Positions 40,165-45,497 of a stretch of DNA of 64,000 nt are shown here, piece by piece; the first letter of the stretch is position 1, and each line of letters opens with the position of its first letter. Under the pieces are notes generated by a model. It saw only the letters and a program-made list of their open reading frames with translations. It searched no databases and had not been told where the DNA came from. The DNA comes from Pyrococcus kukulkanii (GTDB lineage: Archaea; Methanobacteriota_B; Thermococci; Thermococcales; Thermococcaceae): positions 1 to 64,000 of the forward strand of contig NZ_JARRIB010000005.1 of NCBI RefSeq assembly GCF_041647995.1. The letters are read 5' to 3'. Both the position numbers and the translations under genes were made by a program.

Positions 40165-40830
40165 TCACTGTAGCTCTATTGCAGTGCTTGAGTACGTTGG
40201 TGGAGTTAGGAAGTCTATCACCGTTGCCGCACCGTGCGGCGGTATTATCTTCCCTATAACCCTAACAGATGGCGGGATTCCATTGTATTTTGAGAATACC
40301 TTTCCAGTATTTACTAGCAATGCTGCTAAATCGCCCGTTGTCAATGATGGTGAATTCTCGTTTGAAGTCATGCTCTTGTCTGTGTCCAGTAGAACCACAA
40401 CCCCAAATGTCGTATTTGATAACTGATTCCATATACCTAGGGTAAAGATATTGCTTGCTCCGCTAGTTGATGAGTTGAAGACGTCAGGCCCCCCATAGGA
40501 AAGCACTGCCATCTGGTCCTTAACAGTTAGTATTATCCTTGTCTGGTTCAAATTTACTGGTTCACTACCAGCATTTAGGCTGACATATATAACAAGTTTA
40601 GTTATGTTACTCCTGATTTTTTTTGATGTTGAGTTTTCTGGAGCATATCCCCAAATTGAGATCAACCTAATACCACTTGAAACGTCAATAGTTGTCTCCC
40701 TGCCAACGCTTAAGGCCCTCTGTTGCAAATTTCCTGCCGTTGAGATGAGAACTCCTGCGGCTACTGCAGCCACTAGCACCATTGCTATGAAGACTATGAG
40801 CGTGCCAATGCCTATCGCTCCCCTCCTCAT
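40165..40830 (-). CDS. arlB: Archaellin (flagellin), third in operon
   Basis: 221 residues. Class III signal: short basic MRRGAIG, with cleavage by the prepilin-type peptidase after Gly7, then the hydrophobic stem [20 protein letters not shown]. The globular domain ends in a beta strand with PPHGAATVIDFLTPPTYSS. It shares the N-terminal about 35 residues almost exactly, also at DNA level, with the gene at 40842, suggesting duplication or conversion. Filament subunit. Confidence 0.95.
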   Translation of the reverse strand: MRRGAIGIGTLIVFIAMVLVAAVAAGVLISTAGNLQQRALSVGRETTIDVSSGIRLISIWGYAPENSTSKKIRSNITKLVIYVSLNAGSEPVNLNQTRIILTVKDQMAVLSYGGPDVFNSSTSGASNIFTLGIWNQLSNTTFGVVVLLDTDKSMTSNENSPSLTTGDLAALLVNTGKVFSKYNGIPPSVRVIGKIIPPHGAATVIDFLTPPTYSSTAIELQ

Positions 40831-40841
40831 CTGCTACCACC

Positions 40842-41492
40842 TCACTGCAGTAATATTACATTTGAGTTAAACGTTGAGGGTGTTACGAGGTCTATCACGC
40901 CAGCGGCACCTACTTCGGGAATTACTTTCCCTATAAGCCTAACACTAGAGCCAATACCATTCTCGCCCGTCTTCTGATCCGTGAATATTTCAGTAGATAG
41001 GCACAACGCAACTACATCCCCCCACTCAAGCGCTGGGTGATCCTCTGTCATCTTGTTACCTCCATCTTGGATAACGACGACGGCGAAGGACGTGTTAGTG
41101 GCGTTTTCCCAGACCTTGGTTATGCTAAACAGGTCAGTTATAGTCCCGTTGTACAGCTTCCCACTATAGTTGTAAACTACAAGCTTCTTCCCGTCCGTTA
41201 ACACTATCTTAACCTTGCTTAAGTCGATTCCATTGCTTCCCGAGTTCGGTGCAACGAAAATTGCTAGCTTTGTTATCGTGCCGTTACTTGGAGTTGAGGA
41301 GTTGACGTACCCATAGACATCCAAGATTTTGATTCCGCTAGCGACTTCCTGGGTCGTCTGCCTACCAGTGGCCTGAGCCTTTTGCTGGAGATATCCCGCT
41401 GTTCCAATGATAACTCCTGCGGCTACTGCAGCCACTAGCACCATTGCTATGAAGACTATGAGCGTGCCAATGCCTATCGCTCCCCTCCTCAT
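40842..41492 (-). CDS. arlB: Archaellin (flagellin), second in operon
   Basis: 216 residues. MRRGAIG plus [20 protein letters not shown], then a globular beta domain ending [25 protein letters not shown]-like CCCTATATAACTTT (minus strand, about 41549-41562) in the 95-bp gap upstream could drive this and downstream genes separately from the first flagellin. It is 11 bp upstream of the third flagellin gene. Confidence 0.95.
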
Positions 41493-41587: not shown

Positions 41588-42106
41588 TCACTGAAGCCTA
41601 ACTGTACCATTGAGGGATGTTGAATTTGGATAGTAGAACCCAAAGTGCACTGGTGAGCCATACTGTGGCACAATCTCACCACTTACATAGGTGCCCTTCT
41701 TAAGGTCATTTACATCAGTAATTACAATCTTCCCCAGCTCCCCAGGTCTAAGAGTCCCTGTCTCACTTGTTGCTGTTCCATTAGTGCTAATAATCGCAAA
41801 GCTCTTGCCAACTGGCTTTCCATTGAGAAGGATCCTAGTGGCGTTCAAGTCTATTGGGTCTGAACCAGGTACGACTTTCACGTAAATCGTGATATTGCTA
41901 AGGTTCCCGTCATTGAAACCTCCATAAACACCCACAATATCTAGTGCGTTAGCAACTTGCTTGGTTGTCTGAAGTCCAGTAGTTGAAGCCCTGCTCTGGA
42001 GGAATCCGCTCGTGTTGATGAGTACTGCTGCAGCTACTGCAGCCACCAACACCATGGCAATAAATACGATCAAGGTCCCTATACCCACTGCACCCCTTCT
42101 TGCCAC
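41588..42106 (-). CDS. arlB: Archaellin (flagellin), first in operon
   Basis: 172 residues from the GTG at 42106, giving MARRGAVG and the conserved [20 protein letters not shown]. The open frame extends 43 codons further upstream, but that part lies across the promoter. It is shorter than its two neighbours in the globular domain. In P. furiosus the first gene of the series (flaB0) encodes the major flagellin, as I recall; the same may hold here. A dedicated promoter and tandem regulator sites lie upstream. Confidence 0.92.
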   Translation of the reverse strand: MARRGAVGIGTLIVFIAMVLVAAVAAAVLINTSGFLQSRASTTGLQTTKQVANALDIVGVYGGFNDGNLSNITIYVKVVPGSDPIDLNATRILLNGKPVGKSFAIISTNGTATSETGTLRPGELGKIVITDVNDLKKGTYVSGEIVPQYGSPVHFGFYYPNSTSLNGTVRLQ

Positions 42107-42153
42107 TACCACACACCCCCTTGGAGTTTTTTCAATAATCTCTAAAAATAGCT

Positions 42154-42165
42154 GGATATAAAGCG
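42154..42165 (-). promoter_or_regulatory. Promoter TATA of the first archaellin gene
   Basis: CGCTTTATATCC on the minus strand about 50-60 bp before the GTG start, giving a leader of roughly 25-30 nt that includes a GGGGGTGTG ribosome binding site. It lies about 40 bp downstream of the TACATA boxes. Confidence 0.55.
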
Positions 42166-42200
42166 ATTTTTTGTGTGTGGAAGTGCTTGTAAAAATTGAA

Positions 42201-42224
42201 GTGCATATGTAGGTGCATATGTAG
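42201..42224. promoter_or_regulatory. Tandem EarA-type boxes upstream of the archaellin genes
   Basis: GTGCATATGTAG occurs twice head to tail with no gap (42201-42212, 42213-42224). On the coding strand each contains TACATA, the six-base sequence I recall as bound by the archaellum activator EarA of Methanococcus. The two copies are one helical turn apart. earA itself is about 1 kb upstream on the same strand. Confidence 0.65.
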
Positions 42225-42246
42225 GTACACAACAAAAAAGAAAGCC

Positions 42247-43212
42247 CTAAAGCTTCTTGACCACGAGAACCGATTTGCCGTGCTCTTCAAAGCTTACATC
42301 AAAGCCCTCCCCAAGGATGTACTCCTTAACCTCAGCCCTGCTCGGGAAGCCAACGAAGGAATCGTTTAGCCCCTCGAAGAACTCCAACGCCTCAACGTTC
42401 TTGAACTCGTCCCTGAAGGCGTCCACAACTACGAGCTTCCCTCCCGGGTTCAGGCTCTCCATGACCTTCCTCAGGACTTCCCTCCTGTTGGTTAAGTACT
42501 CCATGGTAAACGTCATTATAGCCACATCATATGATGTCCTCGGCTTTATCAAGCCTACATCCATCTCCTTCAACTCAACGGGAAGGTTCATCTTCTCTAC
42601 CCTTGCCCTTGCAATCTCAAGCAAAGCCGGCGAATAATCAACACCGAGGTACCTCCCGTCCTCACCTATGAACCTTCCGAAGTAGGCCGGTGAAACCGAG
42701 CCGCAGCCGAGGTCGAGGACGTAGCTCCCCTCTTTAAGCCCGGTCAGCCTGAGCACGAGCTCCCTGTACGCGGAGTGGAAGGATGATGACAGCCTCATGT
42801 CCCAGAAGTCAGCGTCCTTATCGAAGTCCATAAGCACGTAGGGATGATCTGGAGAAATCAGCGCGAAGTCGACCATCTTGTAGATCTCCTCGAATATCGG
42901 GATCCAGTCCGGGAGGAGAAGCATGTACTCCTCTTTCGGAAACTTCAGCTCGTAGGAGAAGCCGTTGAGGACTAACCTACCGGGGGTCTCCTCAATTATC
43001 CCGAGGGCCTCCAGGTGGTCGACCAGCCTCTTCAGGAGGGACTTGTTCGGAACGCTTACCTGGGAGAGCAGCTCGGAATAGCTCGGCCTCCCGGCGACTA
43101 TCTTGAATATCCCGTACTTTATTCCGAGCTGGGCCAAGTGGAGGACGCTTAGGCTGATCATGTGGTTTATGTTGGTATCGATGACCTTGATTAGCTCTTC
43201 AGTCCTCCCCAT
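42247..43212 (-). CDS. Winged-helix/SAM methyltransferase associated with the archaellum locus
   Basis: 321 residues. An N-terminal O-methyltransferase-type winged helix (HLAQLGIKYGIFKIVAGRPS, LLKRLVDHLEALGIIEETPG) precedes a class I methyltransferase domain: motif I in YVLDLGCGSVSPAYFGRFIG (about 158-177), motif II LGVDYSPALLEIARARVEK, then IMTFTMEYLTNRREVLRKVM and PGGKLVVVDAFRDEFKN. Thermococcales carry such a gene (called fam in P. furiosus) next to the flagellin genes. The substrate is unknown. It lies between earA and the flagellins. Confidence 0.85.
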   Translation of the reverse strand: MGRTEELIKVIDTNINHMISLSVLHLAQLGIKYGIFKIVAGRPSYSELLSQVSVPNKSLLKRLVDHLEALGIIEETPGRLVLNGFSYELKFPKEEYMLLLPDWIPIFEEIYKMVDFALISPDHPYVLMDFDKDADFWDMRLSSSFHSAYRELVLRLTGLKEGSYVLDLGCGSVSPAYFGRFIGEDGRYLGVDYSPALLEIARARVEKMNLPVELKEMDVGLIKPRTSYDVAIMTFTMEYLTNRREVLRKVMESLNPGGKLVVVDAFRDEFKNVEALEFFEGLNDSFVGFPSRAEVKEYILGEGFDVSFEEHGKSVLVVKKL

Positions 43213-43221
43213 GCTACCACC

Positions 43222-43548
43222 TCACATGAACTTCCTGTAGTAGGCCTGGTAGTCCTTGAGCATCTCAACCACTTTTTTCCCGTACTCGGTTAATCGGTAG
43301 TACTTGAAGCCGTTATTAACTATCTCCTCAACCAGTCCCAAGTAGACGAGGGAGCTCTCACCGTTATAACGATTGCCCAAACCAACGAGGGCACCTCTAA
43401 CGTTGGAGGGATCGGAGCCAACTACCCTAGCTATCTCGCTCAGATAAGTCGCGGAGGGATAAATCTCGTACAGGTACTGGAGTATCCTCCTCCTGAGCTC
43501 GCTCCTGTGCAAAGACCTGAGAACGTGGGGGTCTATCACTGGCGGCAC
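43222..43548 (-). CDS. earA: Archaellum transcription activator EarA
   Basis: 108 residues, a winged-helix protein: LRSLHRSELRRRILQYLYEI, SATYLSEIARVVGSDPSNVR (recognition helix about 42-55), GLVEEIVNNGFKYYRLTEYG (wing). Sequence, size and location upstream of the flagellin genes match the euryarchaeal archaellum regulator EarA. GTG start with GGTGATGCC upstream. It is 9 bp before the methyltransferase gene. TACATA boxes at 42201-42224 are its probable targets. Confidence 0.85.
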   Translation of the reverse strand: MPPVIDPHVLRSLHRSELRRRILQYLYEIYPSATYLSEIARVVGSDPSNVRGALVGLGNRYNGESSLVYLGLVEEIVNNGFKYYRLTEYGKKVVEMLKDYQAYYRKFM

Positions 43549-43726: not shown

Positions 43727-44719
43727 ATGGGAGAGGTTATGTTCGGCGGTAAGAAGGAGGAGAGGGCAAACTGGACCTTCTTTCAAGAGCACTACCCGGA
43801 GGTAGTTGAGGGGTTGAAGGAGCTAAAGGAGTGGGAGAGCGTTAAGAGTGCACTAGCTGACTCGGAGAGGCTTGGGGACTACTCGATCCTAGCCCTATCA
43901 GCTTTGGTCGCCATGAAGAGGGAGATAAACCAGGACATGGATGATGTCAGGGAGAAGATCTACTCCCTCTTCTCAAAGCTTGATGCACTAAAAACCGATA
44001 CGGACAACAACTTCAAGAGGGTGGAGAAGGAAATCGAATCCTTAAAGGAGGCAATTGACGAACTCGACAGGAGGACGCTGGTGGTTTCGAACCTCGAGAG
44101 GGTCCTTCCGAGGATAACGGAGATGGAGGAGAGGATGCTCTCCTACCCGCTGGAGGTTGCTGAAAGTATAGAGAAGAGGCTCAGGGAGAAGATAGAGGAG
44201 AAGGTGGAGGAGATAGTCGAGGAGAAGATGAGGGAGTTCGAGGAGAGGATGAACTCTGTAAATCCTGAGGTAGTAAGGGAGATAATAGGGAAGTACGACT
44301 CCCTCGTCAGGGAGAACGTCGAGCTTAGGAGGAAGCTCGAGGCGAGGGAGAGGATAATCAAGGATCTAAGGGAGAAGCTGACGAAGCTTCAGGAGGGGGT
44401 CAAGGAGGTGGAGGCCATAGAGAGGAAGGTCGAGGAGTACGGGAAGCTCGCCGAGGAGCTGAGGGAGATAAGGGCGAGGCTGGCGAAGATGACCGGGAGC
44501 TACGATCCGAGGGAGGCCCTCAGGATAATAGAGAGGAACTACATACCCAGGTCAAAGGTCGAGGAACTAGCTAAGACAGTCAAGAGCTTAATGAAGGAGA
44601 ACGAGGAGTTGAAGAGGGAGAACGAGAGGTTAAAGAAAGAGATTGAGAGGATTACTCAGGCGGTGAAGACGCTAGTTGAAGAGGGGATCATTGAGGCCGA
44701 GACCTCTCAAGAAGGGTGA
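43727..44719 (+). CDS. Long coiled-coil protein
   Basis: 330 residues, rich in Glu, Lys and Arg. Coiled coil occupies about 70-250 and 280-320 ([40 protein letters not shown]). No transmembrane segment or enzyme motif. ATG at 43727 is near the expected transcription start (TATA-like CTTAAATAG at about 43701), so the message may be leaderless; ATG at 43739 is an alternative. Its 3' end overlaps the convergent HEAT gene by 32 bp. Divergent from earA; function unknown. Confidence 0.8.
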
Positions 44720-45440
44720 GCCTTGAAAGCCCTTCCCTGACGGCCTTCATGACTAACTTGCTCTGATCCTGGAACTCTTCTAGCCTGCGTATTATGACCT
44801 TCCTGAGCTTATCGTTTAACGTCGCCAGGTGAACCAGAACCTCAACCGCGCTCGCCCTAACTATCTCGTCCCTGTCGTGTAGCAGGCTTATTATCCTCGG
44901 GAGGTAGGGGCTGACGAACTTGAAATTGTTCTCGCCCATTGCCTCTATGAAGTTCAACGCGGCAAGCTTGTCCTCCCTCCTCTTTGAGGTAAGCATCTCG
45001 GCGAAGTCCCTCGCTATTACCCCCATGAGCTCGGGATTGGCCCTAGCTATCTCCTCAAGGGCGTAGCTCACATTTATCTTCGTCTTCGCATCCCCTATCC
45101 TGTAGTTGGCGAAGAGGACTGGGATCATTGACCTTATGAGCTCGGGCCTCTCCTTGGCTATCTGCCCAAAGGCTTTAGCGATTTCCTGGGTTAGCGGGAT
45201 CGCCTCGCTCTTCTTTATCATGGCAAACAGCTTCTTTATCAGGGGCTCGTACAATTCAGGCTTGCTCTTGGCTATTACCAAGATTATGGAGAGGGCGTTC
45301 TTAGCAACGGTCCAGAGGTCATCATCCAACAATCCTATAAGCTCATTCAAAACCTCCTCATCGTACTTGGCCATTATCAGTATTTTATCGAGGTCCTCGC
45401 TGTTCGCCAATGACTCCCTTATGTCCAACTCTTCCTCCAC
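44688..45440 (-). CDS. HEAT-repeat protein
   Basis: About 250 residues of HEAT/armadillo-like helix pairs: [60 protein letters not shown] with [20 protein letters not shown]. Probably a scaffold. I chose the GTG at 45440 because AGGGGTG lies upstream; the GTG at 45449 is inside that site. It is divergent from the ATPase gene at 45498 and convergent with the coiled-coil gene. Confidence 0.8.
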
Positions 45441-45497
45441 TTCCCACACCCCTAACCTTAAAATCCGAGCTTCAAAAAATAAATGTTTGGTGGTCGA

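Follow-up and report, generated by a model that had tools for sequence, protein, structure and literature searches.

The EarA boxes of Methanococcus maripaludis were reportedly described by Ding in 2016. The archaellum operon of this organism is activated by EarA from a promoter in which a 6-bp box is present in four copies, immediately upstream of a weak BRE with seven adenines (PMC5512572); the sequence of these boxes is given as TACATA (PMC10665913). In the papers at hand, the process shown to depend on EarA is archaellation, in M. maripaludis and in Pyrococcus furiosus (PMC5512572, PMC10665913), and in the latter the activation of the archaellum by EarA was addressed genetically by Stöckl (2023; PMC10665913). 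The same study describes the motif A(C/G)(C/G)TACA(T/C), present in one to three copies before arlB0 in most of the Thermococcales examined, with P. horikoshii reported to have one site, and states that the other arl genes are without the motif; the genes directly regulated by EarA were left to future knock-outs (PMC10665913). The part of this account that was available to us mentions no lattice of 12-bp steps.

Another relevant element, published without a regulator or a link to EarA as far as the available part of the paper goes, is the 23-bp motif TTTGTGTABSTGBTTATGTAGGT, which was found by Villain (2021) in six promoter regions of Thermococcus kodakarensis and the function of which was called unclear (PMC8643681). 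It is located in promoters of supercoiling-responsive genes, namely, the fla, che, MCP, ODP-type, and AAA-ATPase promoters (PMC8643681). The motif-bearing genes are upregulated with gyrase, the archaellum about 54-fold, and downregulated in histone mutants (PMC8643681, PMC8155482). According to Sanders (2021), the 30 transcripts with the strongest depletion in strain TS620 include those of fla, che, TK0156, TK2147, TK1139, TK1605, and TK1606, together with TK0050, TK0168, TK0546, and TK1804; TK1605-TK1606 are absent from the corresponding list of 30 for strain TS622 (PMC8155482).

In the window, i.e., the whole stretch of 64,000 nt of DNA that was analysed, three archaellin genes of the PF01917 family are encoded by the minus strand: the first one, arlB0 (41588..42109, 137 bits, start codon provisional), the second one (40842..41492), and the third one (40165..40830). 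Upstream of arlB0, on the same strand, are a gene of a protein with methyltransferase domain (42247..43212; PF08242, PF13649) and, as had been claimed in the earlier note, the gene of the 108-aa winged helix-turn-helix activator EarA (43222..43548; PF07381, 3.4e-33, 113.8 bits at a cut-off of 22). The EarA of the window is 67-99% identical to 20 relatives. The sole confident model of the five that were obtained (mean pLDDT of 84.3 vs. 51.5-58.7 for the other four) comprises a winged helix-turn-helix and a long C-terminal helix. A search by sequence revealed no close relative of solved structure (best E 0.059, PadR-like), and a search by fold returned weakly the winged-helix regulators of MarR and ArsR types (best E 0.011, none at or below 0.001). 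In three genomes of genus g4, open reading frames of 435-470 aa (L103, L104, L105) encode an EarA-like domain of 39-41% identity. The EarA locus of Geoglobus (L303) has no archaellin gene among its ORFs, as judged by eye. On its other side, earA of the window is adjoined by a coiled-coil protein gene (43727-44719) and a repeat-protein gene (44688-45449), which may be motility-linked, since proteins that by eye look alike adjoin cheR in locus L284.

It is the minus strand that carries the boxes, and this is the strand of arl transcription, which corrects an earlier note. On this strand, ACCTACATATGC is repeated with a period of 12 at 42201-42226 (2.2 copies, 100% matches), and the two TACATA boxes at 42218-42223 and 42206-42211 are 12 bp apart. 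The perfect 12-bp duplication perceived in the earlier note is thus real, as is its 12-bp step, while the description of this step as one helical turn is inexact, 12 bp being 1.14 turns of B-DNA. With its 14 matched bases, the array is the only period-12 run of at least 12 matched bases in the window, and runs of at least 14 were found in none of 200 order-1 simulations. The TACATA sequence alone is weak evidence, as the window contains 35 copies of it vs. 16.2 expected from shuffles. When the window was scanned with a matrix derived from archaellin promoters of other genera, the array ranked first among 127,962 positions (32.4 bits), and the positions ranked 2-4 overlapped the same array.

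The region upstream of the first archaellin gene reads, on the minus strand, ...TGTACCTACATATGCACCTACATATGCACTTC... and resembles the described arl promoters of Thermococcales in its motif, its weak A-rich BRE and the proximity of earA. The Thermococcales motif upstream of BRE/TATA is present in it twice, as ACCTACAT in 42207-42226, and the array as a whole (42201..42226) comprises two full EarA boxes, ACCTACAT(ATGC), their TACA being in slots -61 and -49 relative to TATA. It is followed by the TACA of a degenerate box (TTTTACAAG, 42188..42191) that is off the lattice, at -29, and is present in 7/8 promoters of the genus, by the A-rich BRE (AAAAAATCGC, 42163..42172) of the weak type described in PMC10665913, with 6 adenines vs. 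7-8 in print, and by the TATA box TTTATA (42157..42162; TATAAA on the plus strand). Between the boxes and TATA, a segment of about 38 bp (42163-42200) is near-identical among most of the genus's promoters, a similarity that goes beyond the EarA boxes. The distance from the nearer box to TATA is 43 bp, close to the about 40 bp estimated earlier. This is unlike the Methanococcus geometry, with its boxes immediately upstream of BRE, and unlike the Thermococcales form, in which the first box is about 9-11 bp from BRE; the latter misfit is a known variation, since the motifs of Pyrococcus are described as shifted by a window (PMC10665913). The window array is probably a set of EarA binding sites of an already published kind, and the finding at the archaellin promoter is not new, since the presence of such boxes ahead of the first archaellin gene of Thermococcales is in print (PMC10665913).

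Results of our comparison of archaellin promoters indicate that the boxes are placed on a fixed lattice. The EarA family was matched in 72 of the 94 genomes of the order, in G073 only via a long paralogue; 71 EarA loci were taken, of which 7 contained no archaellin start within the stretch, and the remaining 64 promoters were all anchored at TATA. The TACA sequence starts at -61 in 9, at -49 in 61, at -37 in 56, and at -25 in 41 of them, which amounts to 167 occurrences on the slots vs. 21 off. At least two boxes in fixed 12-bp slots are present in 63/64 promoters (three slots in 41, two in 22), counts that do not represent independent events, since the promoters are related by descent; the sole exception, the promoter of G045, has no lattice box. 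A run of at least six adenines precedes TATA in 64/64 promoters, but this count is biased, as the anchoring rule favoured long A-runs. A perfect palindrome, CCTACATATGTAGG, occurs in 14/64.

Among the genera of our set, we take g1 to be Pyrococcus and g3 to be Thermococcus, and genome G023 is presumably that of T. kodakarensis KOD1. In the window's genus, TACA is present at -61 and -49 in 8/8 promoters, and the alignment of Pyrococcus genomes, proposed in the earlier note as a check, shows that the box pair is kept in each of them. One of these genomes (G011) additionally fills slot -37, bridging to other genera. Compared with 37/40 promoters of g3, the innermost box of the window's genus is displaced upstream by 24 bp. 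The gap of about 40 bp is a feature of the genus, which uses the outer two slots, and the boxes that are 43 bp from TATA in Pyrococcus may be assisted by the TACA at -29, which is conserved and off the lattice. As for the proposal that the Methanococcus-type activation is conserved in Thermococcales, the EarA boxes (63/64 promoters) and the role of EarA as the archaellum activator (genetics in P. furiosus, PMC10665913) agree with it, whereas the geometry does not.

A search of the 94 genomes for the tandem CCTACA-N6-CCTACA was followed up in the 20 near-complete genomes for which every match was listed. It gave 86 matches vs. 9 for the reversed pattern; 22 of the 86 fall within ORFs, and the remaining 64 precede genes of archaellin, CheR, ODP-MCP, or other MCPs. 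The latter correspond to 56 arrays, as eight archaellin promoters hold two overlapping matches. Our script classed 85 matches (21 coding, 62 upstream, 2 left), and the 86th is coding; the two that were left, in the archaellin promoter of G005 and the ODP promoter of G024, were placed by inspection. Gene calling followed a simple ORF rule; near 10/64 upstream sites, the start of an unnamed gene is present as well. The match counts are not independent, since the sites collapse, as judged by eye, to about seven orthologous loci in related genomes: arl, cheR with a divergent MCP gene, the ODP-MCP operon after the A-ATPase D gene, the gene of PilJ-type MCP, and three differently neighboured MCP loci. 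Searches of Pfam with products of the downstream genes gave CheR, CheW, MCPsignal, ODP, ATP-synt_D, CheC, and CheD. CheR was matched in 33/94 genomes, in two of them with an internal stop, and an ODP protein of at least 71% identity is encoded by 30 genomes. The DUF257-MCP operon of the window's genome (G000), as well as its look-alikes in G011 and G024, has no tandem box.

Of the nine places of the reversed control, seven fall within ORFs and none precedes a motility or chemotaxis gene; one of the nine (L238) is behind the 3' end of the gene of an ODP-family paralogue, which is 45% identical to the chemotaxis ODP. When a spacing of 0-30 bp was allowed in the eight genomes of the window's genus, 21 of the 47 matches had a spacing of exactly 6 bp. 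Of these 21, four lie in coding sequence and 17 belong to three orthologous promoters. The 22 matches inside ORFs, among them TatD-like and nucleotidyltransferase-like ORFs and ORFs of 659-670 aa in the ATP-synthase operon, were rejected as targets. A match of G029 beside the 3' end of cheF (L221) falls within a 122-aa ORF without Pfam match and was counted as coding, an assignment that is weakly supported; the reading T-Y-x-N-A-Y of this ORF recurs, by eye, in G018 and G032.

Independently of the fixed pattern, we built a 20-column matrix on the 64 archaellin promoters, which comprise 30 distinct sequences, and scored regions outside this training set, with 424 windows of 150 bp from the 64,000-nt stretch as a background (maximum 9.2 bits). 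Loci of cheR were located with tblastn, and 30 of 33 were returned. All 30 of their upstream regions scored above the best background window, although at 220 bp they were slightly favoured by their length. In the case of ODP genes, 27/30 upstream regions of 150 bp exceeded the background. Two of the misses (G027 and G069) have an MCP gene preceding ODP and the array before that MCP gene; the third genome, G093, has no box at ODP. The boxes of ODP loci are inverted relative to transcription, with TGTAG at -14 in 26 and at -13 in 2 of the 28 CTTAAATA-box sites (30 loci). Of 11 MCP promoters, chosen for a TATA-like stretch that follows the array, seven have TACA at -13 and four at -12. With these spacings to TATA, the ODP and MCP boxes nearly coincide with the lattice slot that would come next on the inner side.

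The same matrix detected a tandem upstream of earA itself (200-bp regions) in 6/71 loci (L033, L077, L091, L096, L097, and L099), all of genus g3, with scores of 17.5-23.8 bits, i.e., above the background maximum. The carriers include no member of the window's genus, and there is no array upstream of earA in the window. As the g3 tandem is located roughly 30-40 bp behind a TATATA stretch, it is probably at or after the transcription start, and it would fit a possible self-repression of earA.

When the 23-bp motif of T. kodakarensis (PMC8643681) is reverse-complemented, it contains two CCTACA-type boxes with a 12-bp step, and the first 20 letters of this reverse complement reach 19.2-28.0 bits when scored with the archaellin matrix, the background maximum being 9.2. 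A simplified pattern of this motif, with up to three mismatches allowed, gave 16 matches in four genomes, some of them overlapping, vs. 2 for the reversed pattern. In G023, the matches are at che, the gene of a 368-aa AAA ATPase, arl, the gene of an MCP-like dCache protein, and ODP (two overlapping), with one further, unrelated match in a 1006-aa ORF. In the window's genome, they are at one MCP gene, ODP, and two unrelated places; at this threshold the pattern misses the window's own arl array and the che array of G000, and it has no match in G006. The AAA ATPase gene, with the array in its promoter (L308, 361-1467), encodes a protein with a weak Vps4_C match. We presume that this gene is probably TK1139. 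Judged by the agreement of letters and step, the orphan 23-bp motif appears to be an EarA-type tandem array. In PMC10665913 and PMC12713403, both EarA and the reference to Villain appear, and the available parts of these papers draw no connection between them.

Taken together, we estimate at roughly 80% the probability that the array of the window is an EarA operator array, which would serve archaellin activation and a motility-and-chemotaxis regulon and of which the 23-bp motif would be another form. In the mechanism that we propose, the tandem boxes would act as EarA operators in a rigid array of 12-bp steps upstream of the weak A-rich BRE, and EarA units, probably dimers, would be placed side by side on the successive steps. 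By helping TFB onto the weak BRE, a step already proposed in print, EarA would turn the archaellin operon on. Since promoters of cheR, of the ODP-MCP operon, and of several MCP genes contain the same array in this organism and in related Thermococcales, our reading is that EarA most likely binds and activates these as well, i.e., that it is most likely an activator of the whole regulon.

It is unlikely that EarA acts at the archaellin promoter only, the chemotaxis genes being controlled by a second regulator with a near-identical site. Such a regulator could explain a tandem box in G019, which is without EarA and archaellins. There, the box precedes a gene the product of which starts with MLLTRHAKERL (L275, ~1961-1986), its other neighbour being a DUF5658 gene, and a non-motility gene of the same kind is preceded by a tandem box in G037 (L322, 1987-2004); both sites fall outside the 20 followed-up genomes. 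It could also explain three genomes (G049, G081, and G076) in which no EarA was found and in which boxes persist at genes of ODP, MCPs, or Che proteins, as well as the different orientation of boxes at ODP. Two of the three, G049 and G081, are drafts split into many contigs and have their boxes at ODP or MCP genes; G076, with a box at a cheR gene that has a reported in-frame stop, looks like a relic. At the cheR locus of G076 (L284), the neighbouring ORFs look broken up and no EarA or archaellin gene was found, possibly a sign of a decaying motility system. In the 13 near-complete genomes without full-type EarA, G073 included, an archaellin match was found in 0/13; G003, a 78% complete draft, has no EarA match and two archaellin matches. 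Against a second regulator, the matrix trained solely on arl promoters fits the sites at cheR and at ODP, where the step is again 12 bp, and the spacing of ODP and MCP boxes to TATA is close to the next inner lattice slot.

The idea that the motif is an element of DNA topology or chromatin and not a protein operator, which was put forward as speculation by Villain (2021; PMC8643681), would account for the rise of the relevant genes with gyrase and their fall in histone mutants (PMC8643681, PMC8155482). We consider it quite improbable, as the exact letters are conserved, the slots are fixed, and the genetics of EarA were done in an organism whose archaellin promoter carries the same motif; moreover, the topology effects could pass through EarA. 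Still harder to credit is a recent, functionless slip as the origin of the duplication in the window, with one box being enough. Although P. horikoshii, reported with one site (PMC10665913), would speak for it, the conservation of TACA at -61 and -49 in all eight promoters of the genus and the letters that differ between the boxes indicate that the pair is not a recent copy.

Since 12 bp is not a helical turn, shifts by whole slots change the face of the helix, which, speculatively, would speak for a cooperative array or an altered twist. The 12-bp spacing, taken with the two transcriptomes in print, leads to the doubtful proposal that EarA binds cooperatively to a single face of a DNA helix that is underwound in the direction of 12 bp per turn and that the whole regulon is a twist-sensitive switch. 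If true, it would explain the rise with gyrase, the fall in histone mutants, and the observation that promoters differ from one another in steps of whole 12-bp slots instead of helical turns.

The boxes of the archaellin promoter are known; what appears to be new is the inclusion of chemotaxis genes in the proposed regulon and the identity of the 23-bp motif: our literature search, with most subscription papers beyond its reach, returned no published statement of a link between EarA and chemotaxis, nor was the identification of the 23-bp motif as an EarA array found in print within the same reach. The propeller and its steering are probably under one switch. If the EarA boxes and the 23-bp motif are the same element, one small activator would tie the building of the propeller to the sensors and steering, and the 12-bp lattice would provide a quantitative handle on the tolerance of an archaeal activator to varied distance from TATA.
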